Shown here: piece after piece, positions 14,907 through 33,879 of the stretch | How positions within the stretch are numbered: the first letter of the stretch is position 1 | How the letters are laid out: each line of letters opens with the position of its first letter | Source of the DNA: Draconibacterium mangrovi | GTDB lineage: Bacteria; Bacteroidota; Bacteroidia; Bacteroidales; Prolixibacteraceae | Assembly (NCBI RefSeq): GCF_010586825.1 | Contig: NZ_JAAAGB010000001.1 | Span: 434,001 to 498,000 of the forward strand | DNA length: 64,000 nucleotides | Direction of reading: 5' to 3' | Position numbers and translations under genes: made by a program | The notes under the pieces: model-generated | What the model was told of the DNA's origin: nothing | Database searches by the model: none | The model's input: only the letters and a program-made list of their open reading frames with translations

Positions 14907-16568
14907 TTACGGATTTTGAATTAAATTCGGTTGTGCCAAAATCTGTGGCTCAGGAATATAATCCACTACACGTGGGCTGCTTGCAGGCACTGTTAACAGT
15001 GGGTTTGCTCCCCTGTCGTGAGTTCCGGGATATTTTCTATCCAATGTTAAACCATTTCTGAAAATATCGTAACGACGGTGAGCTTCGAAAGCCAATTCTA
15101 AACGACGCTCATCAAGAACAAGATCAAGAATTGTTTTTCCTTCAGGAACGTCATCGTAAGTAGGAATATTTGCTCTTTCTCTGATCAGGTTAACATCTGC
15201 AAGAGCACCATCGGTATCGCCTGTTTTTGCGCGGGCTTCTGCACGGTTTAGGTACATTTCGGCTAAGCGAGAAATAATTGGCGAGAACAATTGTGGCTGA
15301 CCTTCCTGGTTCGAACATTTAATTACGAAGAACTTAGGATAACCCTGACGTACCGGCATTTTTTTATCTAGGCGCACATAGGTTTTTCCGCTAATGAATT
15401 CGCCTTGGGTAATGTAATATTTTGTAACACCATCAACGTCTTCGGTCATTACAGTTTGCGTTCCGTTGTACTCGTACTCCCAGCTGTCGCCGTTGTTTGT
15501 AACATCGTACATTTTAAACATTCTCGAACCAGCAGGAGAAGATTTGTCGTACGAATAAGTAATCTCGTAAGTGTCGCCATCGATGTACTGCGGATCGATA
15601 AATTTGTGTCTTCTGTCACTTGGATTTTCATCCAGCAAGTCGCGGTAAGGTTCTGAAGCGTACATTTCGCCCCAGCCAACTCCATCGATTGTTGCATACA
15701 TTCCACCAAACGCATACCAACCGTAGTCGTCTTCGTCTTTTAAGGCGCGGCAAGCGAAAATAACTTCCGAGTTATCTTCAGGAACCATCGTTGGGAAAGT
15801 TTCGTAATCCGATCCCTGCAACAGAGCGAAATTGTTTGATTCAATAACTTCGGTAGCAAAACTTGATGCTTTTGCATTGTCTTCCATGTACAAGTACACT
15901 CTCGACAACAATGCTTTTGCAGCTTGTTCCGAAGCATAAATATTGTATTCAGAATCAACACGTTTAAAGTTGCTCATCAGTTCAGCTGCTGTTGTCAGGT
16001 CTTCGATGATCAGATCGTAAACCTCTTGTACAGTGGCACGCGGAGGCATGTTGTCTACATCAGGTTCTGCATCTAAAACGATAGGTACACCTAAGTTGTT
16101 GGCAGGATCCTGATTGTAAGGACGCCCCCAAATATTTACCAGGTTAAAGTAGAAGAAAGCACGCAGGTAATACATTTCACCAATTACGTGGTTCATACGA
16201 TCGGTTCCTTCCTGCGCTTTATCAATTACTTTATTGGCGTTAACAATACCTTTGTAACAGGTTGACCACAAGCTATTCAAGTGATAGTTTGTTGGTGTAT
16301 GCTGGTAGTTGTACATGTAGTACAAATGGTCGGTAGTTGATCCGCTAAGCGCAATGTTATCGCCACCAAATTCGCCATGAAAATGGTAAGGGCGCATAAA
16401 TTCATTGGTTTTTAATAGGGCATAGGTTCCTAATGCTGCTGCCTCAATTCCTAATTCGTCGGCAAACACCATTTCGTCTGATAAATCCTGAAACGGATCT
16501 CTTGTAATATCGCAGGCTGCGAAAGAGAGCGCAACAAGAATGGCTATAAAAGAATATATTTTTTTCAT
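14907..16568 (-). CDS. SusD/RagB-family glycan-binding lipoprotein (locus 1)
   Basis: 553 aa from the ATG at 16568, which gives the lipoprotein signal MKKIYSFIAILVALSFAAC; a start 18 bases upstream is possible. SusD features: an N-terminal TPR-like helical region (YYLRAFFYFNLVNIWGRPYN, AKALLSRVYLYMEDNAK), LAEMYLNRAEARAKTGD, and the C-terminal LDLVLDERRLELAFEAHRRY followed by DIFRNGLTLDRKYPG. It sits on the cell surface as a lid on the SusC barrel and captures the substrate. It starts about 33 bases after the SusC stop. Its C-terminus closely resembles that of the SusD at 24726-26198, so the two pairs are paralogues. Confidence 0.94.
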   Translation of the reverse strand: MKKIYSFIAILVALSFAACDITRDPFQDLSDEMVFADELGIEAAALGTYALLKTNEFMRPYHFHGEFGGDNIALSGSTTDHLYYMYNYQHTPTNYHLNSLWSTCYKGIVNANKVIDKAQEGTDRMNHVIGEMYYLRAFFYFNLVNIWGRPYNQDPANNLGVPIVLDAEPDVDNMPPRATVQEVYDLIIEDLTTAAELMSNFKRVDSEYNIYASEQAAKALLSRVYLYMEDNAKASSFATEVIESNNFALLQGSDYETFPTMVPEDNSEVIFACRALKDEDDYGWYAFGGMYATIDGVGWGEMYASEPYRDLLDENPSDRRHKFIDPQYIDGDTYEITYSYDKSSPAGSRMFKMYDVTNNGDSWEYEYNGTQTVMTEDVDGVTKYYITQGEFISGKTYVRLDKKMPVRQGYPKFFVIKCSNQEGQPQLFSPIISRLAEMYLNRAEARAKTGDTDGALADVNLIRERANIPTYDDVPEGKTILDLVLDERRLELAFEAHRRYDIFRNGLTLDRKYPGTHDRGANPLLTVPASSPRVVDYIPEPQILAQPNLIQNP

Positions 16569-16601
16569 CTTAATACTGTTATTCATGAATACTGTTTTTG
16601 C

Positions 16602-19589
16602 TTAAAAGTCGATTTTAATACCTGCCAATATCTTTTTCGACAGTGGGTAAAGCGCTCCTGTTTCAGGATCCATTCCCGACCAATCGGAAATAGTTACCAG
16701 GTTGTCGCCACTGATATAAACCGAAGCGTTTTTAACCTTGATAGCCTCAGTAGCTACTTTTGGCAAACGGTACGACAGGGTTACGTTGCGCAAACGAATA
16801 TAACTGGCATCTTCCAGGTAACGCGATGAGTTTTTGTTCGCATTAACACCACCGTTAAATGGTGCCGGATGCGTAGCAATATCGCCCGGTTTTTCCCAAC
16901 GACTCCAGCCATCAGCCAGGTTCATGTTGTTGAACGATGCATACGAACCGTCGCTGTCGAATAATTCGCGGTTACCGTTGTATTTATAAATGTCTTCAAC
17001 AAAACTGATGTTTGCAGTTAAAGTAAAGTTATCGTAAGTAAAGGTGTTCAAAACTCCACCGGTGTATGTTGGTGTAGCTTTCGAGCCGGTATACTGTAAA
17101 GTTGCATCGGCATAGTTCGATGTCAATTCAACGGTTTCAGTACCATCTTCGTTTACTACAATCTGCTCCCACAAAGGCTCACCGTTTGATGGATTTGCAC
17201 CGTACCAAATACGCTGGTAATACGAATCCATGTCGTAACCTTGCTCAATACGTACGTTACCTGATGTATAAGCTTTATCTTCAAACAATTCCTCTACCCG
17301 GTTTTTGTTATAGGCAAAGTTGATGGTCATGTCCCAGTTAAATTTCGATGTTTTTACGATCTCAGGAGTTACCGATAATTCGTAACCTTTGTTGGTAACA
17401 CGACCAACGTTCATCCAAACACCATTATAACCCGACAATGCCGGAAGTGGTACATAAGTTAACAGGTTGTCGCTGTTTTTATAATACACATCGAGGTTTA
17501 AACCAACGCGGTTAAATAAACGTGTGTTAATAGCCGTGTTGTAGCTGGTAACTTTCTCCCAGCTAATATCAGGGTTACCTTTTTGGTATGGAGTTGCTGC
17601 ACTGTTTCCGTTGTACTGAGCAACAAAAGCGTAGTAACCAAGGTACTGGAATCCGCCCGGAGCGTTACCAACCTGTCCCATACTGGCTGACCATTTCAAA
17701 ACATCAACCCATTTTACGTTGCTCATGAAATCTTCGTGGTGAAGGTTCCAACCTAAACTTGCCGACCAGAAATTACCGTATTGGTTGTTCGGACCGAAAC
17801 TACTTGAGCCCTGACGGTTGAAAGATGCAGTTGCCAGATATTTGTTATCGTAAGCATACTGTAAGTTAACCAACATACTTTGTTTGGCACTTTCCCATTT
17901 CGAACCACCAACACCAACTGCCTCGGCAGTTGCATTAAGCACAGTTAAACCAGCCGCAACACCTTTACCTGTTGCATTGGCACCATCTGAATAATAATCG
18001 CTGTATTCCCAGGCCACAAAGGCATTCAGGTTATGCTTGTCGAACGTTTTCTTAAAACGAAGCATTTGGTTGGTGAAACGTGTTCTGCTAAAGCTATATG
18101 CTTCATACAATCTTCCTCTGTCAGCCTGGCCTCCAATTGAACGTGGATCGGTGTACGATTCGTTTTGTCCGTAACCTAACGCAACGTTATTCATCGACGA
18201 GAATGTAAGCCACTCGTTAATTTTGTAATCAACGCCAACGTTGATTCGGAAATTGTTACCGCGCGATTTACCGTAATTGTATTGAAGGTCGTACAAATAG
18301 TTGTTTTCATCGCGGCCATACCATACTTTACCATTGTCAAGCAAGTATTTTTTGCCACTGTCAACTCGTGGATCTAAAACTGATCCGTCAGGTAAATAAG
18401 GCTCGTCCCATGGCATGTAAGTAAACATGTTATAAGTTGAGTGCTCCTGGTTAAATGTATTGGTATAATTACCTGAAAGATTTGCTTTGATCACCAGTCG
18501 TTTTGATGCATTAATTTCAAGATTGGCAATACCCGAAAAACGCTCGTATTCGTAGCCTTTCAATGCACCTGTTTCGTTGTAGTAAGTACCCGACAAATAA
18601 GCCAGAATAACATCGTTTCCACCCGAGTAGTTTACATTGTATTCCTGTGCTTGTCCGGTTTGTGTACCAATATCCATCCAGTCGGTATCGGTATTCAATA
18701 CATCTTCAGTAACATTCGGATTCCATGTTTTTTGGTAGTCGTATAACTCCTGAGAGTTCATCAGCGAGAAGTTTCCGGTATTAAATGTAGTAGCACCATA
18801 TGATGCGTTAACATTAACAACCGACATACCTTTTTCAGCTCGTTTGGTTTGCAACAAAATAACACCGTTTGCAGCCAGCGAACCGTATAACGATGTTGCC
18901 GATGCATCTTTTAAAACGGTAATACTTTCAATGTCATCAGGGCTAAAACCCGGATCGTCGTTACCCATAATAATACCATCAACAACCCAAAGCGGTTTGG
19001 TAGTACCCGACAACGAACCTTTACCCCGAATAGTGATTTCTGTTCCTGCACCCGGTTTACCACTGCTTGCGCTGGTATGCATACCTGCCACTTTACCTTG
19101 TAACATTGCTGCTACGTTTGGAGCAAAAACATCTTTTAGTTCTTCAGCGTCGATGGCAACTGCCGAACCTGTTAAATTCGATTTTTTGGTAGTTCCGTAT
19201 GCCACAACCATTACTTCGTCGAGGTCGGTAGTTGAGCTTACCAACGAAACATCAATTGTAGTTTTGCCTTCTGTTGCAATCTCCTGTTTTTCGTAACCTA
19301 CAAACGAAAACACCAAAGTTGCATTGACATCGGGCACTTCAAGCGAATAATTACCATCAAAATCGCTGGTAATACCCATTGTGGTGCCTTTAATAATAAT
19401 ACTAACACCCGGTAACGATTCGTTGGTTTTGCTATCGGTTACGGTACCGGAAATTGTGGTTGATTGTGCATTTGCAACTATTGCAAACAAGAACATAAAC
19501 ATAACCAGGCCGATTGCCTTGTTTATGCCCGAAAGGAAAGTGTTTTTATTGTTTTTTCGATCAGAACCGAAATTTTGTATATATCTCAT
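16602..19589 (-). CDS. SusC/RagA-family TonB-dependent transporter (locus 1, no STN domain)
   Basis: 995 aa. Signal region to about residue 42 (FMFLFAIVANA), CarboxypepD_reg domain at about 45-130 (SGTVTDSKTNESLPGVSIII), plug with TTKKSNLTGSAVAID, WVVDGIIMG and DIESITVLKDASATSLYGS, then a large beta barrel. It imports a ligand passed on by its SusD partner, using TonB. It lacks the N-terminal STN signalling domain present in the paralogue at 26219-29428, so it should not itself signal to an anti-sigma factor. Several barrel motifs are shared with that paralogue (DGWSRWEKPGDIATHP, SSRYLEDASYIRLR). Substrate unknown. Confidence 0.95.
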   Translation of the reverse strand: MRYIQNFGSDRKNNKNTFLSGINKAIGLVMFMFLFAIVANAQSTTISGTVTDSKTNESLPGVSIIIKGTTMGITSDFDGNYSLEVPDVNATLVFSFVGYEKQEIATEGKTTIDVSLVSSTTDLDEVMVVAYGTTKKSNLTGSAVAIDAEELKDVFAPNVAAMLQGKVAGMHTSASSGKPGAGTEITIRGKGSLSGTTKPLWVVDGIIMGNDDPGFSPDDIESITVLKDASATSLYGSLAANGVILLQTKRAEKGMSVVNVNASYGATTFNTGNFSLMNSQELYDYQKTWNPNVTEDVLNTDTDWMDIGTQTGQAQEYNVNYSGGNDVILAYLSGTYYNETGALKGYEYERFSGIANLEINASKRLVIKANLSGNYTNTFNQEHSTYNMFTYMPWDEPYLPDGSVLDPRVDSGKKYLLDNGKVWYGRDENNYLYDLQYNYGKSRGNNFRINVGVDYKINEWLTFSSMNNVALGYGQNESYTDPRSIGGQADRGRLYEAYSFSRTRFTNQMLRFKKTFDKHNLNAFVAWEYSDYYSDGANATGKGVAAGLTVLNATAEAVGVGGSKWESAKQSMLVNLQYAYDNKYLATASFNRQGSSSFGPNNQYGNFWSASLGWNLHHEDFMSNVKWVDVLKWSASMGQVGNAPGGFQYLGYYAFVAQYNGNSAATPYQKGNPDISWEKVTSYNTAINTRLFNRVGLNLDVYYKNSDNLLTYVPLPALSGYNGVWMNVGRVTNKGYELSVTPEIVKTSKFNWDMTINFAYNKNRVEELFEDKAYTSGNVRIEQGYDMDSYYQRIWYGANPSNGEPLWEQIVVNEDGTETVELTSNYADATLQYTGSKATPTYTGGVLNTFTYDNFTLTANISFVEDIYKYNGNRELFDSDGSYASFNNMNLADGWSRWEKPGDIATHPAPFNGGVNANKNSSRYLEDASYIRLRNVTLSYRLPKVATEAIKVKNASVYISGDNLVTISDWSGMDPETGALYPLSKKILAGIKIDF

Positions 19590-19646: not shown

Positions 19647-20558
19647 TTAGTAATCAAGCAAACCATCATCGAATACTTTCAACTCGCCCATTGTGGTAAA
19701 TGACTGACCGGTGGTACGGGTATCCAAAATCCGGATGCGGAAATATTTTGAAGAGTAGTTTTTGTCCAGCGACAACTCGTTATAGTCGGGGCGTACTTTT
19801 GCATCAAAACGATCTGAAGTCCACACGGTAGTATAGTTAGTACCATCTGAGCTGGTCTGAACATCGAATTGAGCCGGGTCGATACCTCTTGCAGAAGGTG
19901 AACGGGTCCAGAACTGGAATCCACCAATATATTTGGCTTCAGGGAAAGTGATTTGAATGTAGTGAGGAAGTGGTTGTACGATTGCAGTTTCCTCATCAGA
20001 CCATGCCGAATGCCAGAAAGTTGAAGGATCACCATCAACAAGATTTTCTTTCGGGCCTTCCCATATTTCCTGAGTAAAAGTCTCTAACATGCCTGCAGTA
20101 AGCGGATGGAAGGTTTTTCCAGCTTTGGTTGTAAATGCGATTGTTTCGCCATACGAAGTACCGGCTTCGTTGGCAGCGTAAGCGCGCACTTTGTAGTCCG
20201 ATTTTGCGGTTAAACCACCCAGCGTAATCGAATAGTTCCAGTATTCTTCCGGTATTCCATTCTGGGTGAATTTTCCAACAGGAACAAAATTATCCATTGT
20301 TGTTGGTTCACGGTCTTCATCAGTCCAGCAAATTCCCAATGCAAGTACATCCGATCCACCGTTGTCGGTAAGACTTCCGCTAACCACTGCATTAATGTCA
20401 GCAATTTCGGTAACCTCGCCGGTTACAGTGGTTGGCAGGGTACCAACTTCCTCGTCGTCGCAACTTGCAGTAAAGAAAACTGCCGCCAATGCAAGCATAA
20501 AAACGGAGAGTTTGGTTGCACCGTTATGCAGCATTTTTTCATAATTACTTCTTTTCAT
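19647..20558 (-). CDS. Surface lipoprotein with Fn3-like and F5/8 type C domains
   Basis: 303 aa. The lipoprotein signal ends FFTASC (Cys near residue 33). Residues about 42-147 form a beta-sandwich of fibronectin type III kind (TVTGEVTEIADINAVVSGSL, YKVRAYAANEAGTSYGE). About 150-300 is an F5/8 type C (discoidin) carbohydrate-binding domain (LVDGDPSTFWHSAWSD, HYIQITFPEAKYIGGFQFW, YFRIRILD). It is the first gene of the second SusCD locus, 57 bases before SusC, and is best read as a surface glycan-binding protein working with the pair. Which glycan it binds cannot be told from sequence. Confidence 0.88.
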   Translation of the reverse strand: MKRSNYEKMLHNGATKLSVFMLALAAVFFTASCDDEEVGTLPTTVTGEVTEIADINAVVSGSLTDNGGSDVLALGICWTDEDREPTTMDNFVPVGKFTQNGIPEEYWNYSITLGGLTAKSDYKVRAYAANEAGTSYGETIAFTTKAGKTFHPLTAGMLETFTQEIWEGPKENLVDGDPSTFWHSAWSDEETAIVQPLPHYIQITFPEAKYIGGFQFWTRSPSARGIDPAQFDVQTSSDGTNYTTVWTSDRFDAKVRPDYNELSLDKNYSSKYFRIRILDTRTTGQSFTTMGELKVFDDGLLDY

Positions 20559-20881
20559 TTTTTTGATTTTTGTAGATTAATTTGACATAAATAATTCTCT
20601 CAACTAATTATTAATTCTTGTATCCTCTCGACGTGGCTCAAGAATAAGCTCCCGCCAATTATTTATAAACTGACGAGCCTCAAACGGGGTCACCCTATGC
20701 CAAAAATTGATAAAAATGAAAGAAAGATGAATATTTGTCTAATTTGCGACAAATACTATTGCTTAATTCTTCTATTTGTGCGAATACATAGCAAATTGAC
20801 ATCAACTCAAAGTCGATTATGCTACGTTTTGTATAAGCCTCAACCTAAGAAAGTTGAAGCGCGGAAGTTGAATAAATTGGA
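20559..20881. other. Leader region of the second SusCD locus
   Basis: A 323-base gene-free stretch between the Crp/Fnr gene stop and the F5/8-C lipoprotein start, all on the minus strand. It should carry the promoter of the 20558-13486 genes. No TAnnTTTG element or regulator site stood out; a short CAAC/GTTG inverted repeat near 20840 is too weak to call. Confidence 0.5.
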
Positions 20882-21574
20882 TCAGGAATAAGCTTCTCCG
20901 TAACGGTTTAATTCCAGTATTCCTATTTTTCTGCCTTTAGTTTGTATAAGTCGTTTTTTTCGTAAATCGGATAATATTCGTATTGTATTTTCTTCGTTAG
21001 CTCCAATATGTCCGGCAATTTCCATTCGTTTTATCGAAACGTTTATCATATTGTCCTGGTCCAGGTTAAACCGTTCGCGTAAATCCAGTAACAGGTCAAT
21101 AATCCGCTGCCTGTTCGTTTTCTGCGAAAAACTAAGAATGGTATTTTGTGCGGCTCCCAACTCCCGGCAGCTTTGTTGTAAAAGCATCATCCGAACCTGC
21201 ACATTTTCGGCAAATAGTTTGTTTACAATTTGAATGGGAACAAAAATCAACCGGGCCTTTTCCATGCAGGTTGTAAACTCGGTGGCAGGTATCTGGTTTA
21301 ATGCCGAATCGAAACCCACCATATCGTTATAACAAAGTATCTGATAGATCTGCTCCTTATTTTTCGATCCGATTTTGAACTGTTTTAATACCCCGCGCTC
21401 AATAAAATAAATCCCTTTCAATTTTTGTCCCGGGCGGTAAAGCGTTTCGCCAACATTCAGCTCAACCAACTGTAAATCCTTACTCAAGCCAGCCAGCTCT
21501 TCAAGCGTTAAGTGTTTAAATAAATGAATAAACCTTACGTTTACGGTTGTACTATTTATTCTACTCTTTTTCAA
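20882..21574 (-). CDS. Crp/Fnr-family transcription regulator
   Basis: 230 aa. Residues about 15-125 form the cyclic-nucleotide-binding-like beta roll (LVELNVGETLYRPGQKLKGI, YFIERGVLKQF, YNDMVGFDSAL); about 150-225 the winged helix (QRIIDLLLDLRERF, IKRMEIAGHIGANEENTIRI, LSDLRKKRLIQTKG). It lacks the N-terminal cysteine cluster of FNR, so it probably does not carry an iron-sulfur cluster. The effector is unknown. It lies between the ECF sigma gene of the upstream SusCD locus and the second SusCD locus in the same direction, and is a good candidate to control the second locus. Confidence 0.9.
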   Translation of the reverse strand: MKKSRINSTTVNVRFIHLFKHLTLEELAGLSKDLQLVELNVGETLYRPGQKLKGIYFIERGVLKQFKIGSKNKEQIYQILCYNDMVGFDSALNQIPATEFTTCMEKARLIFVPIQIVNKLFAENVQVRMMLLQQSCRELGAAQNTILSFSQKTNRQRIIDLLLDLRERFNLDQDNMINVSIKRMEIAGHIGANEENTIRILSDLRKKRLIQTKGRKIGILELNRYGEAYS

Positions 21575-21688
21575 TTCAATCTCACTATTAATTTACTGAA
21601 TGATGCAGTTCGTCTGCCATTTGTGTATTGACGAAAGTGAGACGCATGTACCCTACTTTGAGAAATTAAAATCCGCGAAATTTTTATT

Positions 21689-21727: not shown

Positions 21728-22336
21728 TTAAAATTGTGATATTTTGAAGAGCAGAGCCAGAAGTGGAAGATATTCTTTCAGTTCGGCGCGTAGTGTTTTT
21801 AAGGCACGGCTAATCAGTGCTTCAACAGCTTTTACCGAGATTCCCATTTTTTCAGCAATCTCGGGATAGGTAAGATTTTCAAAGCGACTGTATTCAAAAG
21901 CAATGCGGCAGCGTTCGGGTAAATTCGATAATACAACAACCAGTTTTTCCTCGAACTCGTGTGCCAAAACCAGGTTTTCGGTGGTGTTTTCAACCTCGTC
22001 GTTTGCGGCTCCCTGCTGATGCGTTTTATTCAACACATTAACCTTTCGCATATGGTCGATACACTGGTTACGCACCATCGAAGTGAGGTAGCTGGGCAGG
22101 TTTTTTATCGACTCAGCCTCTTCGCGTTTTCCCCAAAGTTTAATAAACGATTCCTGAACAATGCCCTGAGCTTCATCAATATCTTTTACATACACCGTTG
22201 CCTGGGCACACAGTGCTTTGTAGTATTTTCTGAAAATAAAGTCGAACGCTCTTTCCTGCCCCCTGGCAAGCTCAGCTAATACGAAGCTATTATTTTGGAT
22301 TTCGCTTTCCGGCATTCCTGTTTTCTCTCGGCTCAA
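21728..22336 (-). CDS. ECF RNA polymerase sigma factor (SusCD-locus type)
   Basis: 202 aa. Sigma region 2 is at about 28-95 (FDFIFRKYYKALCAQATVYV, AQGIVQESFIKLWGKRE, YLTSMVRNQCIDHMRK), region 4 at about 130-185 (LPERCRIAFEYSRFENLTYP, EIAEKMGISVKAVEALISRA). Sigma factors of this kind are held by a FecR anti-sigma factor and freed when an STN-SusC receptor binds ligand. Here the matching FecR gene (29610-30653) is at the opposite end of the same gene row, 7 kb upstream, which is unusual. Probable targets are the FecR-SusC or second SusCD promoters. Confidence 0.93.
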   Translation of the reverse strand: MSREKTGMPESEIQNNSFVLAELARGQERAFDFIFRKYYKALCAQATVYVKDIDEAQGIVQESFIKLWGKREEAESIKNLPSYLTSMVRNQCIDHMRKVNVLNKTHQQGAANDEVENTTENLVLAHEFEEKLVVVLSNLPERCRIAFEYSRFENLTYPEIAEKMGISVKAVEALISRALKTLRAELKEYLPLLALLFKISQF

Positions 22337-22424
22337 ATATAGCCATTAAAGCCTAAATTCACTGGTTAATCACATTTGTTTTCCTATTTAACAAAACTCT
22401 TGAACACTACTGATGATGCCCGTT

Positions 22425-24695
22425 TCAGCGCATCTCGCTTAACATTTTTAGTGCCGGTTGGTAATTCATTCCGGCTGCAATTTGCAAGTCGTTCCTTGCT
22501 GATGGTTTATCATTGGTTTGCATAAAAAACATTGCACGATTAAAATAAGTTTCGGGGTTATTTGTCGCCTGCGAAACGGCCTGCGAATACACCTCCAGCG
22601 CCTTGTTATTTTCCTGTATTTCCTGGTACACTTTAGCTTTACCAAAATAAGCCGACAAATCGGACGGATTTAAGCGAATTGAAGCCTCGAAGTCTGCCAG
22701 TGCCTCGTCGTATTTTTTGGTAATAGCATGAATAACTCCACGGTTGATATACGTAACATTACTTTCGGGATTCAGCTCGATCGAGCGGTTAAAATCGGCC
22801 AGTGCTTTTTCCAGGTTTCGTTTTTGGCGCCACAACATTCCGCGGTTGCTGTAAGCCATAAAATTAAACTCGTCGATGGCAATGGCGCTGTTAAAATCAT
22901 CTAACGCTTTATCCTCATTTTTTAACGTAAGATTGGCATTTCCACGGCTCAGCAAATATTCCGCTTTCCCGGGATTTAGTTCAACTGCCTTGTTAAAATG
23001 TTTCATTGCTTCAGTTGGCTGTTTCAGCATCATCAGCGCATGTGCTTTGCCATGATGTGCATCCGCGTTTTTGGAATTAAATTCAAGCGCTTTATTAAAA
23101 TATTCCAGCGCTTCCCCGTACTGATTTTCCTTTGATTTGATTTCACCCATACGCAATGCAAAAGCATCGTCTTCCAAAAATTTAGGAACGATTTCAAATT
23201 TTGCTTCGGGCGACATATTAATAAATTCAGGAATATTGGCAGCCCGGTTTCCTGAAGCAAAATACTCGAGATAAACCGGTGGCGAGTCATTTCCATCCTC
23301 GTCAATATGCGTGAGCAACAACTGGGTGTACGGCCCGTATTTTTTCGATGAAAACACCATCCAGCGGCTATTTGGCGAAATCGAGTGCCACGAGTTCATG
23401 TTATCCGAATTACAATTCATTAAACGTGTTTCGCCCCCTTCAACCGGTTGAATATACAGTTTGCTGTCGGGCATTAGCAACATAAAACTTTCGGCTTTAC
23501 AGAAGATCATGTATTTCCCGTCGGGAGTAAAACGTGGAAAATAATTACTCATGCCGTTGTTTGAAGCTCCCGGAACCGGTTCGGCTTTTCCGCCTTTGCC
23601 ATTGTTAAACGGAATGCGGTAAATATCGAACTTAAAAAGTTTTTCGCGTTCTAAAAAAGCATTCAAAAATTTGTTGTACGCCTTATAATCAACAGCTTGC
23701 GAACCTCTGAAAATTCCACTTTCTTCCAGGTGCACAGCACGCGAGCGTGTAAAATAAATGTACTCGCCATTTGGCCCCCAGCTGGGATTGCTGTGTACGT
23801 AATTGGTATCGTTGGCACCTTCCAACTCGAAGTATTTTTCTTCTACCCGATCGTAAACACTCAAAATACCTTTAAACGGAAAAAACAACTGCGAATATTC
23901 GAGGTCGTTGCGGTCGACAAAAATCTCCGAGTCTTTTAATGTACTTACCACGTACCGGCTGTCGGGCGATATTTGCGAAAGCAGACCGTAAGTAAACTCA
24001 CCGTTTACAAAGTTGCTCCAGTTCATAATCTCCTTTTCCGACATAACGGTTTCTTCGCCCACCTCAACAATTGCGTACGCTCCTTTTTCGTCGCGGGCAT
24101 CCACATCCATGGCCAAAGTTCCTCCATCGGCCGAAACCGAATGGCAGTTACCACAAACAGGAATATCGCTTAAAACAGTAGCCGGCGCATCAGATGAGCC
24201 AATGTTGCCCAGTTGCCAACGCACTTCGGTTAAATTTTCGCGGGCAAACTTAAAAGGCAGCGGCACCGAGCGGTAAAAAATGGGTGCTCCAACCGAATCA
24301 GTGGAAAACTGAAAGGAAACCGTATCCACGGGAAATGCTTTTTGTTTATCATCGATAGCTGCCAAAACAAGCGACACTGATTGCTGTTTTGCTTGTTGTT
24401 TAAGCGCTTCCCAAACTTTAGCTGATGGCGACCAGCGCATTTCGCTGCTAACTCTTGATTCGTGCAGAACTTGATTTTCAGCATCCAGCACACTTATCTT
24501 CCACAAAGAAGTTGCGTTGTCAGTAGTTTCCCAAAAACATGTTGGAGACGGAAATTCGGGTGGAAAAACAGTTCCATCGGCCGGATAACTGATTTTCGCA
24601 TCAATTGTTTTGCGAGGCTGCGTATTACACGCCAGCATTAAAACACTTACAGCGAATACGAAAATTGTTTTTACGATGATAGCTTTATTTTGCAT
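22425..24695 (-). CDS. Large lipoprotein with CXXCH motif, propeller-like region and TPR repeats
   Basis: 756 aa with lipoprotein signal MQNKAIIVKTIFVFAVSVLM then LAC (Cys 23). Residues about 35-140 form an Ig/Fn-like segment (ISYPADGTVFPPEFPSPTCF). C181-G-N-C-H185 (24141-24155) is a CXXCH motif, the covalent haem c signature, followed by SVSADGGTLAMD. About 225-480 has WD40/TolB-like (PD40) strands (ISPDSRYVVST, SNPSWGPNGEYIYFTRSR, FPRFTPDGKYMIFCK, HSISPNSRWMVFSSKKYG). About 510-756 is a run of around seven TPRs (ALEYFNKALEFNSKNADAHH, ALADFNRSIELNPESNVTYI). It sits between SusD and the sigma gene, 30 bases after SusD. The role is unknown; a periplasmic sensor or redox scaffold is possible. 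Confidence 0.82.
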   Translation of the reverse strand: MQNKAIIVKTIFVFAVSVLMLACNTQPRKTIDAKISYPADGTVFPPEFPSPTCFWETTDNATSLWKISVLDAENQVLHESRVSSEMRWSPSAKVWEALKQQAKQQSVSLVLAAIDDKQKAFPVDTVSFQFSTDSVGAPIFYRSVPLPFKFARENLTEVRWQLGNIGSSDAPATVLSDIPVCGNCHSVSADGGTLAMDVDARDEKGAYAIVEVGEETVMSEKEIMNWSNFVNGEFTYGLLSQISPDSRYVVSTLKDSEIFVDRNDLEYSQLFFPFKGILSVYDRVEEKYFELEGANDTNYVHSNPSWGPNGEYIYFTRSRAVHLEESGIFRGSQAVDYKAYNKFLNAFLEREKLFKFDIYRIPFNNGKGGKAEPVPGASNNGMSNYFPRFTPDGKYMIFCKAESFMLLMPDSKLYIQPVEGGETRLMNCNSDNMNSWHSISPNSRWMVFSSKKYGPYTQLLLTHIDEDGNDSPPVYLEYFASGNRAANIPEFINMSPEAKFEIVPKFLEDDAFALRMGEIKSKENQYGEALEYFNKALEFNSKNADAHHGKAHALMMLKQPTEAMKHFNKAVELNPGKAEYLLSRGNANLTLKNEDKALDDFNSAIAIDEFNFMAYSNRGMLWRQKRNLEKALADFNRSIELNPESNVTYINRGVIHAITKKYDEALADFEASIRLNPSDLSAYFGKAKVYQEIQENNKALEVYSQAVSQATNNPETYFNRAMFFMQTNDKPSARNDLQIAAGMNYQPALKMLSEMR

Positions 24696-24725
24696 ATAAA
24701 TTGATTGACAATGACCATTTTGGTC

Positions 24726-26198
24726 CTACGGATTTTGAACTAAGTTATCCTGCACAAGAATTTGCGATTCGGGGATGTAAAACACAACTCGTGGATGATC
24801 GGGAGGCACAAACAACAAGGCGTCACCCTGCTCGTGGGTTCCCGGGTAGTTACGATCCAAAGTCAAACCATTCCGGAAAATATCCCATTTTCGTTGTGCT
24901 TCAAAAGCCAGTTCCAGTCGGCGCTCTTCAAGCACCACTGCCAAAACACTTTCCCGGCCTTTTAAATCGTTTGGAGAATAAAGCGCATCGCCACTTAAAC
25001 CGGCACGTTCACGAATTAAATTCACATCGTTAATGGCCTCGCCGTTTAAGCCCAGTTTGGCATTGGCCTCGGCGCGGTTTAAATACATTTCGGCTAAACG
25101 CAGGTAAACCGGCGAACTTAAAGTGGGCCGCTCTTCCTGCATCGAAAACTTGTTGATGTAGTATATCGGGTAGCCATTTCGTTCTTTTAAAGTAACACCA
25201 TCGCTTTCGTATTGCGGTTCGATAAAAGCATGGCGTGCATCTTCTGGATTCTGGTCAAGCAAATCGCGGTAAGGTTCAGATGCATACATTTCGCCCCAGC
25301 CCTGACTGGCGATGTGATTATACATGGAACCAATTGATTCCCAGCCACGATCATCAACATCAACATTGTGTTTTACCGCAAATATTGTTTCGGTATTTTG
25401 CTCGGGTAATTTTCGGAAATAGGTTTTGAAATCTTCGGTTCCCAAAAGCCGGTATCGGTCGGATTCGATAACTTTACTGGCATATTCTTTTGCTTTTTGC
25501 GCATAGCTTACATTTGGATTTTCGGGTGTGCCCGACATGTACAGATACACGCGCGAGAGCATAGCCTGCGCCACTTCTTTCGACGCATAAATATTCGACC
25601 GTCCGCTTCCCATCAACGCTTCGGCCTGCAACAAATCGGTAATTACCTGGTCGTAAACTTCTTTTACGGTTCCACGATTCGGCACATTTATAACCTGGTC
25701 GTCTAATTTTATTGGAACACCCAGATTCGTCTCCGGACTTTGGTAATAGGGCCTACCAAACGTATTTACCAAGTGAAACAGCGTTTGTGCCCGTAAAAAC
25801 AGATTTTCGCCTTTTAGTTGTTTTAGTTCGGCTGAAGAATCATCGTCAACAGACAAAATCACTTTGTTACAACCCACCATTAACTGGTACGCTTTTTCCC
25901 AGAAGTGAGAGGTGGTATACATAGCCGGGAAATGCTGGTAGTTATAGCAATAAAATAAATCGTCGCTGGTTGTTCCACTCAACGAAACATTATCGCCGCC
26001 ATATTCGCCAAAAAAGTGAAAATTACGCTGGTAATAACCATCTTTCAAATAGTTGTAATTCCCAACAGTGGCACCGTTTAAACCAATAATGTCTTCTTTC
26101 AGTTCCGACTCTGGAATCCCTTCGTAAGGCTGGTAATTTAAGTTACAGCCGAAAGTACCAAATAAAATTAGCAGGTATAAAAACAATCTCCTTATCAT
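24726..26198 (-). CDS. SusD/RagB-family glycan-binding lipoprotein (locus 2)
   Basis: 490 aa from the ATG at 26198, which gives the lipoprotein signal MIRRLFLYLLILFGTFGC; a start 12 bases upstream is possible. SusD landmarks: FLRAQTLFHLVNTFGRPYYQ, MLSRVYLYMSG, RLAEMYLNRAEANAKLGL, VVLEERRLELAFEAQRKW followed by DIFRNGLTLDRNYPG, and the ending IPESQILVQDNLVQNP, almost the same as in the other SusD here. It binds substrate outside the cell for the SusC at 26219-29428, whose stop is about 20 bases upstream. Confidence 0.94.
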   Translation of the reverse strand: MIRRLFLYLLILFGTFGCNLNYQPYEGIPESELKEDIIGLNGATVGNYNYLKDGYYQRNFHFFGEYGGDNVSLSGTTSDDLFYCYNYQHFPAMYTTSHFWEKAYQLMVGCNKVILSVDDDSSAELKQLKGENLFLRAQTLFHLVNTFGRPYYQSPETNLGVPIKLDDQVINVPNRGTVKEVYDQVITDLLQAEALMGSGRSNIYASKEVAQAMLSRVYLYMSGTPENPNVSYAQKAKEYASKVIESDRYRLLGTEDFKTYFRKLPEQNTETIFAVKHNVDVDDRGWESIGSMYNHIASQGWGEMYASEPYRDLLDQNPEDARHAFIEPQYESDGVTLKERNGYPIYYINKFSMQEERPTLSSPVYLRLAEMYLNRAEANAKLGLNGEAINDVNLIRERAGLSGDALYSPNDLKGRESVLAVVLEERRLELAFEAQRKWDIFRNGLTLDRNYPGTHEQGDALLFVPPDHPRVVFYIPESQILVQDNLVQNP

Positions 26199-26218
26199 CG
26201 TGAATTCCATTTGCTGAT

Positions 26219-29200
26219 TTAAAAGTTTACTTCTACTCCAAATATATACTTGCGCGTAACCGGATACAGCGTCCCGCCATATCCTTGAATTCCCACTTCA
26301 GGATCCATTCCTGAAAAGTTGGTTAATGTCCACAGATTTTCGCCGGCAAGTTTTAGCTCGGCACGGTTTAACCCTACTTTATGAACCCAATTTACAGGTA
26401 ATGTATACGATAAACTCAGGTAATTCAGGCGCAGGTAACTACCGTCCTCTAAATAACGCGACGATGGTTTGTTCGACAGTTTATTGCCCAGCAACACCGG
26501 CCGCGGATGTGTGGCAATATCGCCCGGTTTTTCCCAACGGCTCCAACCGTCGGGTAATTTTATTGCGTTATAGGTGGGGTAAGCTCCGTCGTTATCAAGC
26601 GACTCGCGCAACAAATGATAGATTTTATTGCCATAAACAAAGTTAAAGTTGGCATCAAGCTTAAACTGTTTGTAGACGAAGGTATTCATAAAACCTCCAA
26701 AAAATTTGGGCGACGAGCTATCCATGTTTTGTAACGTTGCCTCGCTGTATTTCGATGTTTTTTCAATGATTTTCGTGCCGTCTTCAGCTGTGGTTACTTT
26801 TTCCCATAACGGATTACCATCCGATGGGTTTACACCTGCCCATTTACGCATGTACCAGGTGTTGATATCCCAGCCTTCGCGAATAATTTTGGTACCCTTC
26901 GAAATGTCTTTCCCATCGTTTAATTTCAGCACCTTGTTTTTGTTAAAACTCATATTCAGGCTGGTATTCCATAAAAATGGAGATGACTTTACAATTTCGG
27001 TTTCCAGGCTGAATTCCAGTCCGCGGTTTTGAATTGAGCCCACATTGTCGGTATACCAGTAAAAGCCGGTTACCAATGGCAGCGGAACATCCTGCAGCAG
27101 GTTGTCAGTCCTTTTATCATAGGCATCAACTGTTATGTTTACCCGGTCGAACAATCGTGTATCAATTCCGAAATTGAAGTTTTTGTTCGACTCCCAGGTA
27201 AGATCGGGATTAGGTAACCTGCGCGGAAATCCTCCGGGTTCGCCATTGTATTGCACGGTCATATTGTAAAGCCCCAGCGCTACGTAATCGGCAATATTGG
27301 CATTTCCTACCGAACCATAACTAAGGCGCAGCTTTAAATTATTTACGAAACCAACCGGCTGCATAAAATCCTCTTTTGTGACAATCCACGACGTACCTAC
27401 GGAATAAAAATCTCCGAATCGTTGGTTGGCACCAAATCTCGACGATCCGTCGCGGCGGTACGAAAGCTGCATCATATACTTGTTTTTGTACACGTATTGC
27501 ACATTCGACAAAATGGATAAAAAGGCCGATTTTGATTTACTTCCTCCAATGGATTTTGACTCTGAGGCTCCGTTTAAAATTTCGAGCGAGGGGTAAATAC
27601 CTTTCCCTTCGCCGTTCATTCCATCAATGTACGACTGCGTATACTCGTAAGCTACAATTCCGAATACCGAATGATCAGTATATTCTCTGTTAAAACGCAG
27701 CACATTACTGGTCGACAAATCACGCGTATATCCATAAGCGTTGTATAGAATTCCGGAATCAGCTTCTCCATCCGGTGTACGCGAATCAGAGAGCTGTTCA
27801 AATCGCGATGTTCTTGTTTTAATCCGGTTGTTCGAAACAAATGTAAGCCAGTCGGTGAGTTTGTATTCCACTCCTACGTCGTTCATGTACTGGGTGCTTC
27901 GGCTTTTAATGTAGTTGTATTGCATTTCGTACAAGGGATTGCCCTGATTTCGGCTATACCACTTAACACCATCGGCTTCTGTCCGGCCAACTTTTATTGT
28001 GCCGTCGCTGAAGTAAGGATTATCCCACGGAAGCAGCACATACGAGCCAAACACCAAATCGTTTTCGTTGTTGAAATTATTTTGGAAGATCCCTTCCACT
28101 TTCAGTATCAATTTTAATTTATCAGAAGCTTTATAGTCGAGGTTTACGCGGCCCGAGAACTTTTCCCATTGGTGCCCGCGCGCAGCTCCATCTTCGTTAA
28201 AGTAGCCCAAACTAGTGTACAACATTGTTTTTTCATTTCCGCCGCTGTACGATAAATTATAATCGTGCACAATGCCGTTTTGAAAGGCAATATCCTGCCA
28301 ATCGACTCCATTTATTACATTTTCAGAATTGGCCGGAGGAAACTGCCCCGGTAACTTATCGCCATCCATCGACATCACGTAATCGTACAACTCCTGCCCG
28401 TTCATCAGGGTTAAATTACCGTGATTCACCTGCGTAATTCCGGTACTGGTTTTTAAGTTAAAACTTGATGAGTTAATTTTTCCGGTTTTGGTTCTAACCA
28501 TGATGACACCATTTGAAGCCCGCGAACCGTACAAGGCAGCAGCTGCAGCATCCTTAAGTACCGAAACCGACTCAATATCATTAGGATTTATATCGGGCGA
28601 AGTGGTGCCGAAAATTACCCCGTCAACCACCCAAAGGGGTTCGTTTGTGTAGTTGATCGATCCTTCGCCGCGAATGCGCAGACTGGGTTTTTCGCCGGGT
28701 GTTCCTGACGAACTGGAAACCAGGACTCCTGTTGCTTCACCCTGCAACTGATTCAGCAAGTGTGGGCTGGTTACATTCGCCAACTGTCGCTGGTTAAATG
28801 CCTGAACAGAACCGGTAAGCGAAGATGCCGACTGCGTGCCGTAAGCCACAACGATTACCTCATCAATATTGCGGCTCAACTGGTTCATGGTTACAATTAA
28901 AAATTGCTTATCGGTATAAGTCACCGTCTGGCTTTCCATACCAACAAACGAGAATTCGAGAATTGCCGGTGTTTTAATTACGTTAAGACTAAAATTTCCT
29001 TCAGCATCTGTTACGGCACCCAATATTGTTCCGCGAACGATTACTGTAACTCCCGGTAGTGCTTGCCCCGCCTTGTCAACGACTTTCCCTTCAACAATAA
29101 TTTTATCGCTATCGATTTCATCCACATCAACAGGAAACAGAATTACGAGCCGGTCTTTTATAGTAAAATCCACATTCTGCCCCTCGAAAAGAAGTTCTAC

Positions 29201-29428
29201 AACTTCAATTATGCTCTTGTTTTGGATATTCAAATCAACTTTTCGTTCAACATCCATTAAATTGTTGTTGTATAGAAAATAATATTGATTTTGATTTTCA
29301 ATTTCCAGCAAAACTTCTTTAATGCTTACATCAACCAGATTTAGGCTAATGCGCGAATCCTGCGAATTAGCCTTTATTGAGATAAATGAGAGGGCTAGTA
29401 ATGTTGCTACAAAAATTACCAGTTTCAT
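26219..29428 (-). CDS. SusC-family transporter with N-terminal STN signalling domain
   Basis: 1069 aa. Signal peptide to about residue 22 (VATLLALSFISIKANS); STN (secretin/TonB short N-terminal) domain at about 25-100 (SRISLNLVDVSIKEVLLEIE, FEGQNVDFTIKDRLVILF); CarboxypepD_reg domain at about 113-195 (EGKVVDKAGQALPGVTVIV); plug (SASSLTGSVQAFNQRQL, WVVDGVIFGT, DIESVSVLKDAAAAALYGSR); then the barrel. The STN domain contacts a FecR-type anti-sigma factor, and a FecR gene lies directly upstream (29610-30653). So it is both importer and ligand sensor. It is a clear paralogue of the SusC at 16602-19589. Ligand unknown. Confidence 0.95.
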   Translation of the reverse strand: MKLVIFVATLLALSFISIKANSQDSRISLNLVDVSIKEVLLEIENQNQYYFLYNNNLMDVERKVDLNIQNKSIIEVVELLFEGQNVDFTIKDRLVILFPVDVDEIDSDKIIVEGKVVDKAGQALPGVTVIVRGTILGAVTDAEGNFSLNVIKTPAILEFSFVGMESQTVTYTDKQFLIVTMNQLSRNIDEVIVVAYGTQSASSLTGSVQAFNQRQLANVTSPHLLNQLQGEATGVLVSSSSGTPGEKPSLRIRGEGSINYTNEPLWVVDGVIFGTTSPDINPNDIESVSVLKDAAAAALYGSRASNGVIMVRTKTGKINSSSFNLKTSTGITQVNHGNLTLMNGQELYDYVMSMDGDKLPGQFPPANSENVINGVDWQDIAFQNGIVHDYNLSYSGGNEKTMLYTSLGYFNEDGAARGHQWEKFSGRVNLDYKASDKLKLILKVEGIFQNNFNNENDLVFGSYVLLPWDNPYFSDGTIKVGRTEADGVKWYSRNQGNPLYEMQYNYIKSRSTQYMNDVGVEYKLTDWLTFVSNNRIKTRTSRFEQLSDSRTPDGEADSGILYNAYGYTRDLSTSNVLRFNREYTDHSVFGIVAYEYTQSYIDGMNGEGKGIYPSLEILNGASESKSIGGSKSKSAFLSILSNVQYVYKNKYMMQLSYRRDGSSRFGANQRFGDFYSVGTSWIVTKEDFMQPVGFVNNLKLRLSYGSVGNANIADYVALGLYNMTVQYNGEPGGFPRRLPNPDLTWESNKNFNFGIDTRLFDRVNITVDAYDKRTDNLLQDVPLPLVTGFYWYTDNVGSIQNRGLEFSLETEIVKSSPFLWNTSLNMSFNKNKVLKLNDGKDISKGTKIIREGWDINTWYMRKWAGVNPSDGNPLWEKVTTAEDGTKIIEKTSKYSEATLQNMDSSSPKFFGGFMNTFVYKQFKLDANFNFVYGNKIYHLLRESLDNDGAYPTYNAIKLPDGWSRWEKPGDIATHPRPVLLGNKLSNKPSSRYLEDGSYLRLNYLSLSYTLPVNWVHKVGLNRAELKLAGENLWTLTNFSGMDPEVGIQGYGGTLYPVTRKYIFGVEVNF

Positions 29429-29525
29429 AATCTAATACACTTAAAATAAAATGGTACCGACAGAATACACCTGCCGATCTTCTTTTTTTATTATTTTTGG
29501 CGTGAATTAGATTCAATCAAATTTA

Positions 29526-29582
29526 TTACCTGAGGGCAAATCAGGTAAGTTACACAGGGAAGAGTTCCAATCCTCCCTGTGT
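29526..29582 (-). promoter_or_regulatory. Two adjacent hairpins in the FecR-SusC spacer
   Basis: ACACAGGGA at 29552-29560 pairs with TCCCTGTGT at 29574-29582; TTACCTGA at 29526-29533 pairs with TCAGGTAA at 29541-29548. On the minus-strand mRNA they stand one after the other between FecR and SusC, without a T-run in that direction, so they may act in mRNA processing or stability. Plus-strand reading of the first would end in six T, but no plus-strand gene is nearby. Confidence 0.5.
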
Positions 29583-29609
29583 TTTTTCCTTAAAACTTAA
29601 AAACTACTT

Positions 29610-30653
29610 CTATTTACTGCGCTCCTTTAATATGATTTTTCTTTTCGAATAAGTACCGTCCTGATCTTTCGATGCCGGATTTATGGAGTATTCAATAGGC
29701 GATGAGATACTGAGGTAATCAAGCACCTGATCGATCGATCCGTTAATGAATGTTGCTGTAAATATCAACTCATTCAAACCGTCGTCAGCAAGTTCAATAT
29801 CCACATTGTACCAATTTTCCAGTTTTTGTACTACCGTTTCAATTCCATCCTCAAAAAATACAATCTTTCCATCTTTCCAGGCATTGTACTTATTCAAACT
29901 CTTTTCTTTTTGAATTACGATATTATGTTTCTCGTTATTGTAAATAGCCACTTCGTTTGGTGTTAACGAAACCAAAGCATCCTCATCGTCGGAATTTGCT
30001 TTAAGAAGACTTACTTTTCCTTCTTTTAGTGCAACCGTTAACTCAGGTGCATTCTCGTAGGCCGAAACATTAAACGCCGTTCCCAGCACTTTAACATCAA
30101 GCGCCGATGTTTGCACAATAAATGGTTTTGCTGCATTTTTTGTCACCTCGAAAAAGGCTTCACCAACCAATTCAATACGTCTTTCTTCCAAATTATCGAA
30201 AGAGTTTGGATAGTGCAGGCGGCTTCCCGAGTTTAACCAAACTTTGGTACCATCAGCCAATTCAAGCTGTGTTTGTGTGCCAAAGGCAGTTGATATATCC
30301 TGGTACACAACATGCTCTTTCTCGTATGACGAAATATGATTATATAGCGAAGAGATGGCAACAGACACCAATAAAACAGCAGCTACCTGCCTTGCAATTA
30401 CCAACCACCGTTTCTTTGAATCGGAAAATGAAATTCGCTCTTTAGTTTTTAGCAAAGAAGCTTCCACATCAATAGCGCCACCAACAACCAAATCTTCCGA
30501 TTTTTTCCATAACTGTTGGTAAGCCTCGTATTCCCGGGCATTCTCTTCCGATTCTGAAATCCACGTGTTGAGCTGCGATTTCTCCTCATCACTCAAACCG
30601 CCAAAAACGGATTTCGAGAGCAGGTGTTCGATATTTTTATTCGTATTGGACAT
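29610..30653 (-). CDS. FecR-family anti-sigma factor
   Basis: 347 aa. The N-terminal cytoplasmic part (about 1-80) binds the sigma factor (LSKSVFGGLSDEEKSQLNTW); a single membrane segment is at about 84-103 (WLVIARQVAAVLLVSVAISS); the periplasmic FecR domain at about 120-260 has FGTQTQLELADGTKVWLNSG, RRIELVGEAFFEVTKNAAKP and VKVLGTAFNVSAYE; a DUF4974-like segment closes it (FFEDGIETVVQKLENWYNVD). It should relay the STN signal of the SusC encoded next to it. Normally the sigma gene precedes FecR; here the only candidate sigma gene in the row is 7 kb downstream at 21728-22336. Confidence 0.95.
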   Translation of the reverse strand: MSNTNKNIEHLLSKSVFGGLSDEEKSQLNTWISESEENAREYEAYQQLWKKSEDLVVGGAIDVEASLLKTKERISFSDSKKRWLVIARQVAAVLLVSVAISSLYNHISSYEKEHVVYQDISTAFGTQTQLELADGTKVWLNSGSRLHYPNSFDNLEERRIELVGEAFFEVTKNAAKPFIVQTSALDVKVLGTAFNVSAYENAPELTVALKEGKVSLLKANSDDEDALVSLTPNEVAIYNNEKHNIVIQKEKSLNKYNAWKDGKIVFFEDGIETVVQKLENWYNVDIELADDGLNELIFTATFINGSIDQVLDYLSISSPIEYSINPASKDQDGTYSKRKIILKERSK

Positions 30654-30831
30654 TAATTACAATTGATTCCTTTTTATAAGACGTATCCCGCTTGTGCACC
30701 CCCTGCATCAAATTTTAAATTTATTTGAGAATAAGGCACAAGTTCTAATCTTTCAGGCCATTAATAATGGCTCAAAATTATAATTCTTAGGCAGAATACT
30801 TCAGTCAGCACAGGTATTTTTACCGGGCTGC

Positions 30832-32319
30832 CTATTTTACGTTTAACTGTCCTTCCGAGTTCGCTTTACCAAGGTTGTGCACTTTAGTTGTACCGCCACC
30901 TTTTAACGTTAATTCAACCGGTTTGTTTGTTTTCCAGGCACCGCGGGTAAAATCAGGAACGTCAATCGGTTTCGAACCATTTGCAATTGACCATTCACTT
31001 AATGGAGTAATACACGACCATGTAGCTGCATCATAAACATCCATATCCATGGGTAATCCGTTGCGTAAACAGTCGATTAAACGCCAGTCCATAAGGAAGT
31101 CCATTCCTCCGTGACCTCCAACTTGTTTTGCCATGGTACCAATTCGTTTTACAATCTCAGGCGTGTATTTTTCTTCCAACTCCTTCATTTTTGCCTCGTC
31201 GGCCACCTCGTGCCCGAATGCAATGTGTTGCAGTGGCCATTTCTGTGCGAAACACTTTGTACCGCTCAACATGTGAATGCGTGAGTACGGGCGCGGAGAT
31301 GAAATATCATGCTGAATCATTATTGTACGCCCCTTAACGGTACGAATCATTTGCATATCCATATTTCCACGCATTTCCACACCTACAAACTGCTGTAAAT
31401 CCGAACGGTCGGGTGCTAGTTCTTTTATGCGGTTTTTTAACGTAAAGTCGTCCGATATCATTGCAGTAAGGTAATCCAAACGGTCGCCCCTGTTAATATC
31501 CATTGCCTGGCAAATCGGGCCTAAACCATGGGTTGGGTATACATTTGCTTTACGTGTGTTTTCGTGCAAACGCCATAATTTATCGTAAGCACCATCGCCA
31601 CGTGGTTTATCGTCTTGAGGTTTATTAAAGTGCCAGTAATCCAGATCATGAATGTAAGCACCTTCACCATGCACCAGGTCTCCAAATACGCCCTGGCGAG
31701 CCATGTTTAAGGTTAACAGTTCAAAGAAATCGTAACAACAGTTTTCAAGAATTACACAGTGTTTTTTGGTTTGTTCCGAAACCTCAACCATTTCCCAACA
31801 TTCGTCCATGGTTTTTGCAGTTGAAACTTCAACAGCTGCATGACTTCCTCCACGCATTGCTGCTAAAGCAACAGGTACGTGCCACTCCCAGGGGGTAGCA
31901 ATGTAAACCAGGTCTACCAGTCCGCTCTCGCACAATGCTTTAAACGCGGTATCGCTTCCTGTAAATTCTTTTGCTTTAGGCAAGCCGGATTTTGCCAAAG
32001 AAGCCTGTGCACCATCAATGGCCGCCTGACGTGTATCGCAAAGGGCGGTAACTTCAACACCATCAATAAAACCCATGCGATCTACTGCACCAATACCCCT
32101 GTCACCAATTCCTACAAAACCAATTCGTACTTTATCCAGTTTTGGTGCGGCGTAACCACACATGTTAAAGTTCATTGCAGGAACTCGATCAGCCGATTTG
32201 CGGATAAATTTAACCTGTTCTTTTTCACTAACACTACCCGATGCCATTAGTGGTGTACTGGCAACCACACCAGCTCCAAGTCCAATATTTTTTAAAAATG
32301 TTCTACGATTTGTACTCAT
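30832..32319 (-). CDS. GH109-type NAD-dependent glycosidase / Gfo-Idh-MocA protein
   Basis: 495 aa with a Tat signal (NRRTFLKNIGLGAGVVAS). The Rossmann domain starts at about 65 (RIGFVGIGDRGIGAVDRM, ALCDT, VYIATPWEWHVPVALAAM). The catalytic part has NCCYDFFELLTLNMARQGVF, HGEGAYIHDLDYWH, YPTHGLGPICQAMDINRGDR and KGRTIMIQHDISSPRPYSRI, which match my memory of GH109 enzymes. That family cleaves alpha-N-acetylgalactosamine with NAD by an oxidation-elimination mechanism; other Gfo/Idh/MocA roles cannot be excluded. It lies between the FecR locus and the N-acetylhexosamine operon on the same strand, with its own spacer on each side. Confidence 0.85.
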   Translation of the reverse strand: MSTNRRTFLKNIGLGAGVVASTPLMASGSVSEKEQVKFIRKSADRVPAMNFNMCGYAAPKLDKVRIGFVGIGDRGIGAVDRMGFIDGVEVTALCDTRQAAIDGAQASLAKSGLPKAKEFTGSDTAFKALCESGLVDLVYIATPWEWHVPVALAAMRGGSHAAVEVSTAKTMDECWEMVEVSEQTKKHCVILENCCYDFFELLTLNMARQGVFGDLVHGEGAYIHDLDYWHFNKPQDDKPRGDGAYDKLWRLHENTRKANVYPTHGLGPICQAMDINRGDRLDYLTAMISDDFTLKNRIKELAPDRSDLQQFVGVEMRGNMDMQMIRTVKGRTIMIQHDISSPRPYSRIHMLSGTKCFAQKWPLQHIAFGHEVADEAKMKELEEKYTPEIVKRIGTMAKQVGGHGGMDFLMDWRLIDCLRNGLPMDMDVYDAATWSCITPLSEWSIANGSKPIDVPDFTRGAWKTNKPVELTLKGGGTTKVHNLGKANSEGQLNVK

Positions 32320-32502
32320 CTTATTCGTTAATTTTAGTTTTCGTGTAACTGTTTTGAATTATTGACGAATATTTAGTGGCTCTACCCTACACTGAAATGC
32401 AGTATATCTTCATTTTAAAATATTGATCTGAGTCAGAATTTCAGCCACCAAATTATCTACATTGCTCCTATGAAATAGCTATGTGAAAGCCATCAGCATC
32501 AA

Positions 32503-33876: not shown

Positions 33877-33879
33877 CTA

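Follow-up and report, generated by a model that had tools for sequence, protein, structure and literature searches.

A FecI/FecR-type locus of Draconibacterium mangrovi with a split sigma factor–FecR pair and a predicted shared promoter motif

On the minus strand of a 64,000-nucleotide stretch of the Draconibacterium mangrovi genome (hereafter the window), five neighboring genes encode a FecR-type anti-sigma factor, a SusC-type TonB-dependent transporter with an N-terminal STN signalling domain (SusC1), a SusD lipoprotein (SusD1), a CxxCH lipoprotein, and an extracytoplasmic function (ECF) sigma factor (Table 1). All five open reading frames were found in the places and order given by a preliminary description of this DNA, and with the domains expected from it. 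The sigma factor scores 151 bits against TIGR02985 (cut-off 126.4)—which places it in the FecI-like group of Bacteroidota—and the FecR protein exceeds the cut-offs of both PF04773 and PF16344 and matches the solved anti-sigma chains 4m0n and 4m0h. In SusC1, the STN domain (PF07660) covers residues 49-99. From SusC1 through the lipoprotein, the genes are separated by gaps of 8-30 bp, and ~109 bp lie between the lipoprotein gene and the ATG of the sigma gene. The same-strand run continues past sigma with genes for a Crp-type regulator, an F5/8 lipoprotein, a second SusCD pair, and a DUF3472 protein. Besides SusC2, the SusC proteins of the genome reach at most ~31% identity to SusC1.

Table 1. 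Features of the locus in order of transcription (window coordinates)
Feature	Position	Strand	Remarks
Predicted ECF promoter of GH109 gene, TAGGGT-N16-CGTC	32364..32389	-	
GH109-type enzyme, likely alpha-N-acetylgalactosaminidase	30832..32319	-	top solved match 6t2b, E 1e-94
Predicted ECF promoter of fecR, CAGGGG-N16-CGTC	30680..30705	-	TAGGGG or TAGGGT in three congeners; degenerate in D. orientale
FecR-type anti-sigma factor	29610..30653	-	FecR + FecR_C domains; single hydrophobic stretch at ~residues 86-104
Hairpin with 12-bp stem between FecR and SusC1	29552..29582	-	second hairpin at 29526-29548
SusC1, TonB-dependent transporter with N-terminal STN signalling domain	26219..29428	-	STN + Plug + SusC/RagA
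SusD1 lipoprotein	24726..26210	-	SusD domain
CxxCH/PD40/TPR lipoprotein	22425..24695	-	PD40 + TPR domains, CxxCH motif
TATATTTG, Bacteroidota housekeeping -7 box (TAnnTTTG) preceding sigma	22334..22341	-	
ECF sigma factor, start revised to ATG 22315 (probable)	21728..22315	-	TIGR02985
Predicted ECF promoter of Crp gene, TAGGGT-N16-CGTC	21630..21655	-	
Crp/Fnr-type regulator	20882..21574	-	found only in Draconibacterium gene order
Predicted ECF promoter of F5/8-SusC2-SusD2, TAGGGT-N16-CGTC	20672..20697	-	
Lipoprotein with F5/8 type C (CBM32-like) domain	19647..20558	-	
SusC2, SusC1 paralogue, no STN match	16602..19589	-	43% identity
SusD2, SusD1 paralogue	14907..16586	-	45-59% over two segments
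DUF5077-DUF3472 protein, final gene of sigma-headed block	13486..14826	-	

The positions of the open reading frames bear out the distance of ~7 kb between sigma and FecR that had been pointed out before, and the arrangement is indeed atypical. In the 5.9-Mb genome (27 contigs), 19 of the 23 FecR-type genes have a sigma gene directly upstream on the same strand; among the remaining ones, one has a divergent sigma, two have a sigma upstream across 1-3 genes, and one—that of the window—has its sigma downstream (our own count from a map of FecR neighborhoods). The window pair is hence neither adjacent nor ordered with sigma first.

Despite this separation, sigma and FecR form a cognate pair as judged by their trees. 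Trees computed for 72 sigma/FecR pairs contain the identical 25-locus clade for both proteins (support 0.995 for sigma, 0.992 for FecR), and the seven loci with a split pair form one clade in either tree (0.944 for sigma, 0.950 for FecR). Tree distances to the window pair correlate with a Spearman coefficient of 0.83 for all loci and of 0.78 after removal of the split loci. The nearest sigma factors outside this group (55-62% identity) adjoin the nearest FecR proteins (45-52%), there in canonical order. These shared, supported clades agree with the earlier proposal of one sensing module with a matching sigma and FecR.

Alignment of the congeners' intergenic regions before FecR, Crp, and F5/8 revealed a common element, TAGGGT-N16-CGTC, and a scan added the site before the GH109 gene. 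Genome-wide, the pattern TAGGG-N17-CGTC occurs three times, all at this locus, compared with 26 occurrences of a reversed control pattern; CAGGGG, the form before fecR, deviates and is not one of these three strict matches. A set of 37 genomes from the genus contains 44 strict matches, 21 of which lie—again by our own count—at loci of the sigma clade. Within 3.2 Mb of collected loci, 40 of 41 distinct sites are located 3-121 bp upstream of a FecR, F5/8, Crp, or GH109 gene of the system. The motif stands directly before FecR in most canonical loci of the sigma clade (16 of 18; two with a 15-nt spacer), and a TGGGGT-N16-CGTC form is readable by eye before the FecR of Maribellus. No such motif was found before SusC1 or upstream of any sigma gene of the clade.

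TAGGGT-N16-CGTC is best read as the promoter of the locus sigma, because it consists of a -35/-10 pair with constant spacing and a CGTC box and tracks one sigma clade; a CGT box has been interpreted as ECF before (PMC9723704). Hereby, the anti-sigma gene, and not the sigma gene, would be the conserved target. Predicting promoters for the sigma factors of polysaccharide utilization loci (PULs) of Bacteroidota without mapped start sites has been called challenging (PMC3878776), and a literature search on TAGGGT combined with other terms gave no paper containing TAGGGT among the matches listed. Among 49 loci of other sigma clades (L075-L096 and others), 21 show an AGGGT/G element in the 80 nt upstream of FecR, compared with 3.5 by shuffling; in these loci it is not clearly present before SusC, SusD, or sigma. 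Possibly, AGGGT/G is a general -35 element of FecI-like sigma factors.

The genome with the window is closely related to Draconibacterium sediminis. Five Draconibacterium congeners keep the order of the window—in one of them (L059), the contig starts within the lipoprotein gene. The five-gene order of the preliminary description can thus be found in related genomes, but Maribellus and Carboxylicivirga place sigma ahead of the F5/8-SusCD2 block: Maribellus reads sigma, F5/8, SusC2, SusD2, DUF3472, lipoprotein, FecR, SusC1, SusD1, and two Carboxylicivirga show the same order without the lipoprotein and with the GH109 gene after SusD1. In Marinifilum and Ancylomarina, F5/8-SusC2-SusD2 is present without an adjoining sigma, and in Puteibacter SusCD1 is placed behind an unrelated sigma/FecR pair. 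A SusD2 scan across the taxonomic order at E 1e-170 gave no match outside the own genome, and the locus hence appears rare in that order.

Since these relatives place sigma directly before F5/8-SusC2-SusD2, we take the window sigma to be the probable head of the next block (sigma-Crp-F5/8-SusC2-SusD2-DUF3472) rather than the end of a five-gene operon. The simplest history would start from a canonical sigma-FecR-SusCD1 locus into which the F5/8-SusCD2-DUF3472 block was inserted, so that sigma and FecR came to lie apart; Draconibacterium would later have moved FecR-SusCD1-lipoprotein before sigma. Parsimony suggests this direction of the rearrangement. At other FecR loci (L182, with its sigma at 9277-9870, L081, and L086), 1-3 genes are inserted between sigma and FecR, and separation of the pair therefore arose more than once.

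Sigma itself is preceded by a different element. TATATTTG fits TAnnTTTG, the housekeeping -7 consensus of Bacteroidota (PMC9723704). The TTG at 22336, listed as the start of the sigma gene, forms the end of this box and is not present in one of the congeners; the ATG at 22315, which is common to all congeners, is therefore probably the true start. TAnnTTTG is found within -70 to +25 of 21 of the 27 sigma genes of the clade, and of 36 of 67 sigma genes overall compared with 4.4 of 67 after shuffling. A scan with the sigma-70 consensus gave a number of matches equal to the shuffled mean. One congener (L040, 7636-7978) carries ~200 additional bases between sigma and Crp, which partly resemble a dispersed repeat.

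Concerning the ligand, the neighboring genes give a hint. The GH109 gene is located only 178 bp upstream of FecR. The earlier remark that no glycosidase lies inside the five-gene set is true as worded but passes over this gene, which shares the predicted promoter. Two SusCD pairs and a GH109 enzyme under a common predicted promoter make the locus a PUL. Beside GH109, positions 32503-38721 hold same-strand genes for a PGM/PMM mutase, a nucleotidyltransferase, an NahK-type N-acetylhexosamine kinase (solved match 4ocu, E 4e-73), and an MFS transporter behind a LacI-type regulator, which might form an N-acetylhexosamine salvage set. In Bacteroides thetaiotaomicron, PUL BT4240-50 encodes GH109, an APH-type N-acetylgalactosamine (GalNAc) kinase, an MFS transporter, a CBM32 lipoprotein, SusCD, and sigma/anti-sigma factors (PMC11992087). 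Counterparts of all of these—the kinase as an N-acetylhexosamine kinase and the lipoprotein as CBM32-type—are present here. Because GH109, NahK, and MFS genes adjoin the locus and BT4240-50 carries a similar set, a GalNAc-containing glycan is our best guess for the ligand. The adjoining GH109 and NahK genes weaken the previous suggestion that the ligand is something other than an ordinary polysaccharide. The M60-like O-glycopeptidase and the GH2 enzyme of BT4240-50 are not among the main proteins scanned from 6293 to 38721, the match of SusD1 to 5cjz, the solved SusD homologue from BT4240-50, is only local (E 3.5e-6), and the sigma/anti-sigma genes of BT4240-50 show no induction on mucin. Also near the locus are a subtilase (10123-11826) and a protein with a chorismatase (FkbO/Hyg5-like) N-terminal and an L-PSP-type C-terminal domain (6293-7456).

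The CxxCH motif of the lipoprotein (C181, C184, and H185) is invariant across 17 homologues. The family combines a PD40 propeller with a variable TPR part and is frequently found close to SusCD genes; an AlphaFold model has a mean pLDDT of 57 and is reliable in the TPR part only. Because full-length homologues turn up in many unrelated settings, the lipoprotein was dropped as a marker of the system.

Taken together, the locus is probably a FecI/FecR-type module for an N-acetylhexosamine glycan, with a split cognate pair, a TAGGGT-N16-CGTC regulon, and a history of block permutation. An N-acetylhexosamine glycan—probably GalNAc-containing—would bind to STN-SusC1/SusD1, SusC1 would signal to FecR, and FecR would release its cognate ECF sigma. 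This sigma would then read the TAGGGT-N16-CGTC promoters at GH109, fecR(-susC1-susD1-lipoprotein), crp, and F5/8(-susC2-susD2-DUF3472). With fecR as a target of its own sigma, the circuit would bear a negative feedback, and sigma itself would be transcribed from a housekeeping promoter.

Known systems provide parallels for this wiring. The fecIR-fecA system of Escherichia coli (ferric citrate) shares an ECF sigma, a FecR-type anti-sigma factor, and a TonB-dependent receptor with an N-terminal signalling domain. The E. coli target is fecA, with no autoregulation of fecIR (PMC9249621), whereas the Draconibacterium locus has a split pair, a second SusCD without STN, and a fecR gene with a predicted target promoter. 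In the has system of Serratia marcescens (HasI/HasS/HasR), HasI transcribes the gene of its anti-sigma factor, and hasI is not autoregulated (PMC9249621). The predicted wiring is the same—anti-sigma gene as target, sigma gene not—and HasI/HasS hence set a precedent for an anti-sigma gene as sigma target. Unlike in the has system, which belongs to another phylum and uses heme as ligand, the Draconibacterium sigma may also be read from the ECF-driven run. PUL24 of B. thetaiotaomicron (BT1876/BT1877) is likewise a SusCD operon under sigma/anti-sigma control. Its mapped start lies upstream of BT1875 and has no housekeeping promoter (PMC11501099); the predicted start in Draconibacterium, in contrast, precedes the anti-sigma gene.

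Several observations weigh against such a module. Two bases of the fecR site in the window do not fit the consensus, and in D. orientale the site is degenerate. One congener no longer has the -7 box preceding sigma (TATATTAA), and this box is not accompanied by a clear -33 element. Because the canonical comparison loci were chosen for the similarity of their sigma factors, only the FecR tree and the motif are unaffected by the selection. No ECF motif is present immediately before SusC1, and a hairpin separates this gene from FecR. Behind this hairpin lies a TAAATTTG box; strong hairpin, box, and missing motif together make it plausible that SusC1 owns a separate basal promoter.

The hairpin after fecR reaches z values of ~-3.2 to -3.4 in Draconibacterium and of -3.0 in Carboxylicivirga. 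The tandem hairpins (29526-29582) are kept in Draconibacterium, and Carboxylicivirga carries one strong hairpin of different sequence. Maribellus has none, and the hairpin was therefore rejected as a general feature.

Maybe, the gene order bears no regulatory meaning at all: the permutation would be neutral, and the parts would act as in canonical loci. We give this an even chance. Each target block retains its own ECF motif in every order, and the output therefore need not change when blocks move; only in Draconibacterium, however, does sigma trail an ECF-driven gene run without a terminator.

That run leads to the reading of the preliminary description, in which fecR, susC1, susD1, the lipoprotein gene, and sigma form one transcript and sigma, being made last, closes a delayed positive loop. 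The common strand and the short gaps fit this reading, and with the ECF-type promoter predicted before fecR, this order puts sigma behind a promoter that it is itself predicted to read. Of the promoter and terminator that could set 21728-22336 apart, a promoter-type box is present, but no terminator-like site was found on the minus strand between SusC1 and sigma, and read-through into sigma is therefore possible. Still, we consider a single transcript rather unlikely: sigma has a housekeeping-type -7 box of its own, a strong hairpin follows fecR, and FecR, Crp, F5/8, and GH109 each bear a predicted ECF promoter. In the sister genera, sigma precedes F5/8-SusCD2 and is not downstream of any ECF motif, and the FecI and HasI sigma factors are not autoregulated (PMC9249621). 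Such a positive loop could also be an addition to basal transcription of sigma. Only in the Draconibacterium order might read-through occur, and it is a tentative idea that the block permutation placed sigma under its own target promoter—with the fecR-susC1-susD1-lipoprotein transcript continuing into sigma.

That the motif is instead an operator of another regulator, such as the Crp-type protein (20882-21574), is very unlikely. In favor of it are the position of the Crp gene within the locus and the motif that this gene carries; however, the motif also precedes FecR or F5/8 in loci without this Crp gene (Maribellus, Carboxylicivirga, and canonical loci), is nonpalindromic, keeps a constant spacer of 16 nt, contains a CGTC box as is typical of ECF -10 elements, and follows the sigma clade. 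Least credible of all, even given the ~7 kb distance and ~45 full-length ECF sigma matches in the genome, is that another sigma serves this FecR, as the sigma and FecR trees show identical clades, four promoters near sigma share the motif seen before FecR across the clade, and the other ECF sigma of the window is just 23% identical to the locus sigma and therefore an unlikely partner.

As a split cognate pair with a shared predicted regulon, the sigma/FecR arrangement would be a new variant of FecI/FecR-type signalling. One sigma clade yields a sharp, almost locus-exclusive predicted promoter, TAGGGT-N16-CGTC, which would define a regulon; the AGGGT/G elements upstream of FecR in further clades suggest that many PULs might be approached in this way. 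If sigma is indeed read from the fecR-driven run, Draconibacterium would have a delayed positive feedback in addition to the negative one with fecR as target, which is the only feedback predicted for the circuit in Maribellus and Carboxylicivirga. Nature would then have provided two circuit topologies made of the same genes, and this gene set in its two orders could serve to test whether gene order alters feedback.
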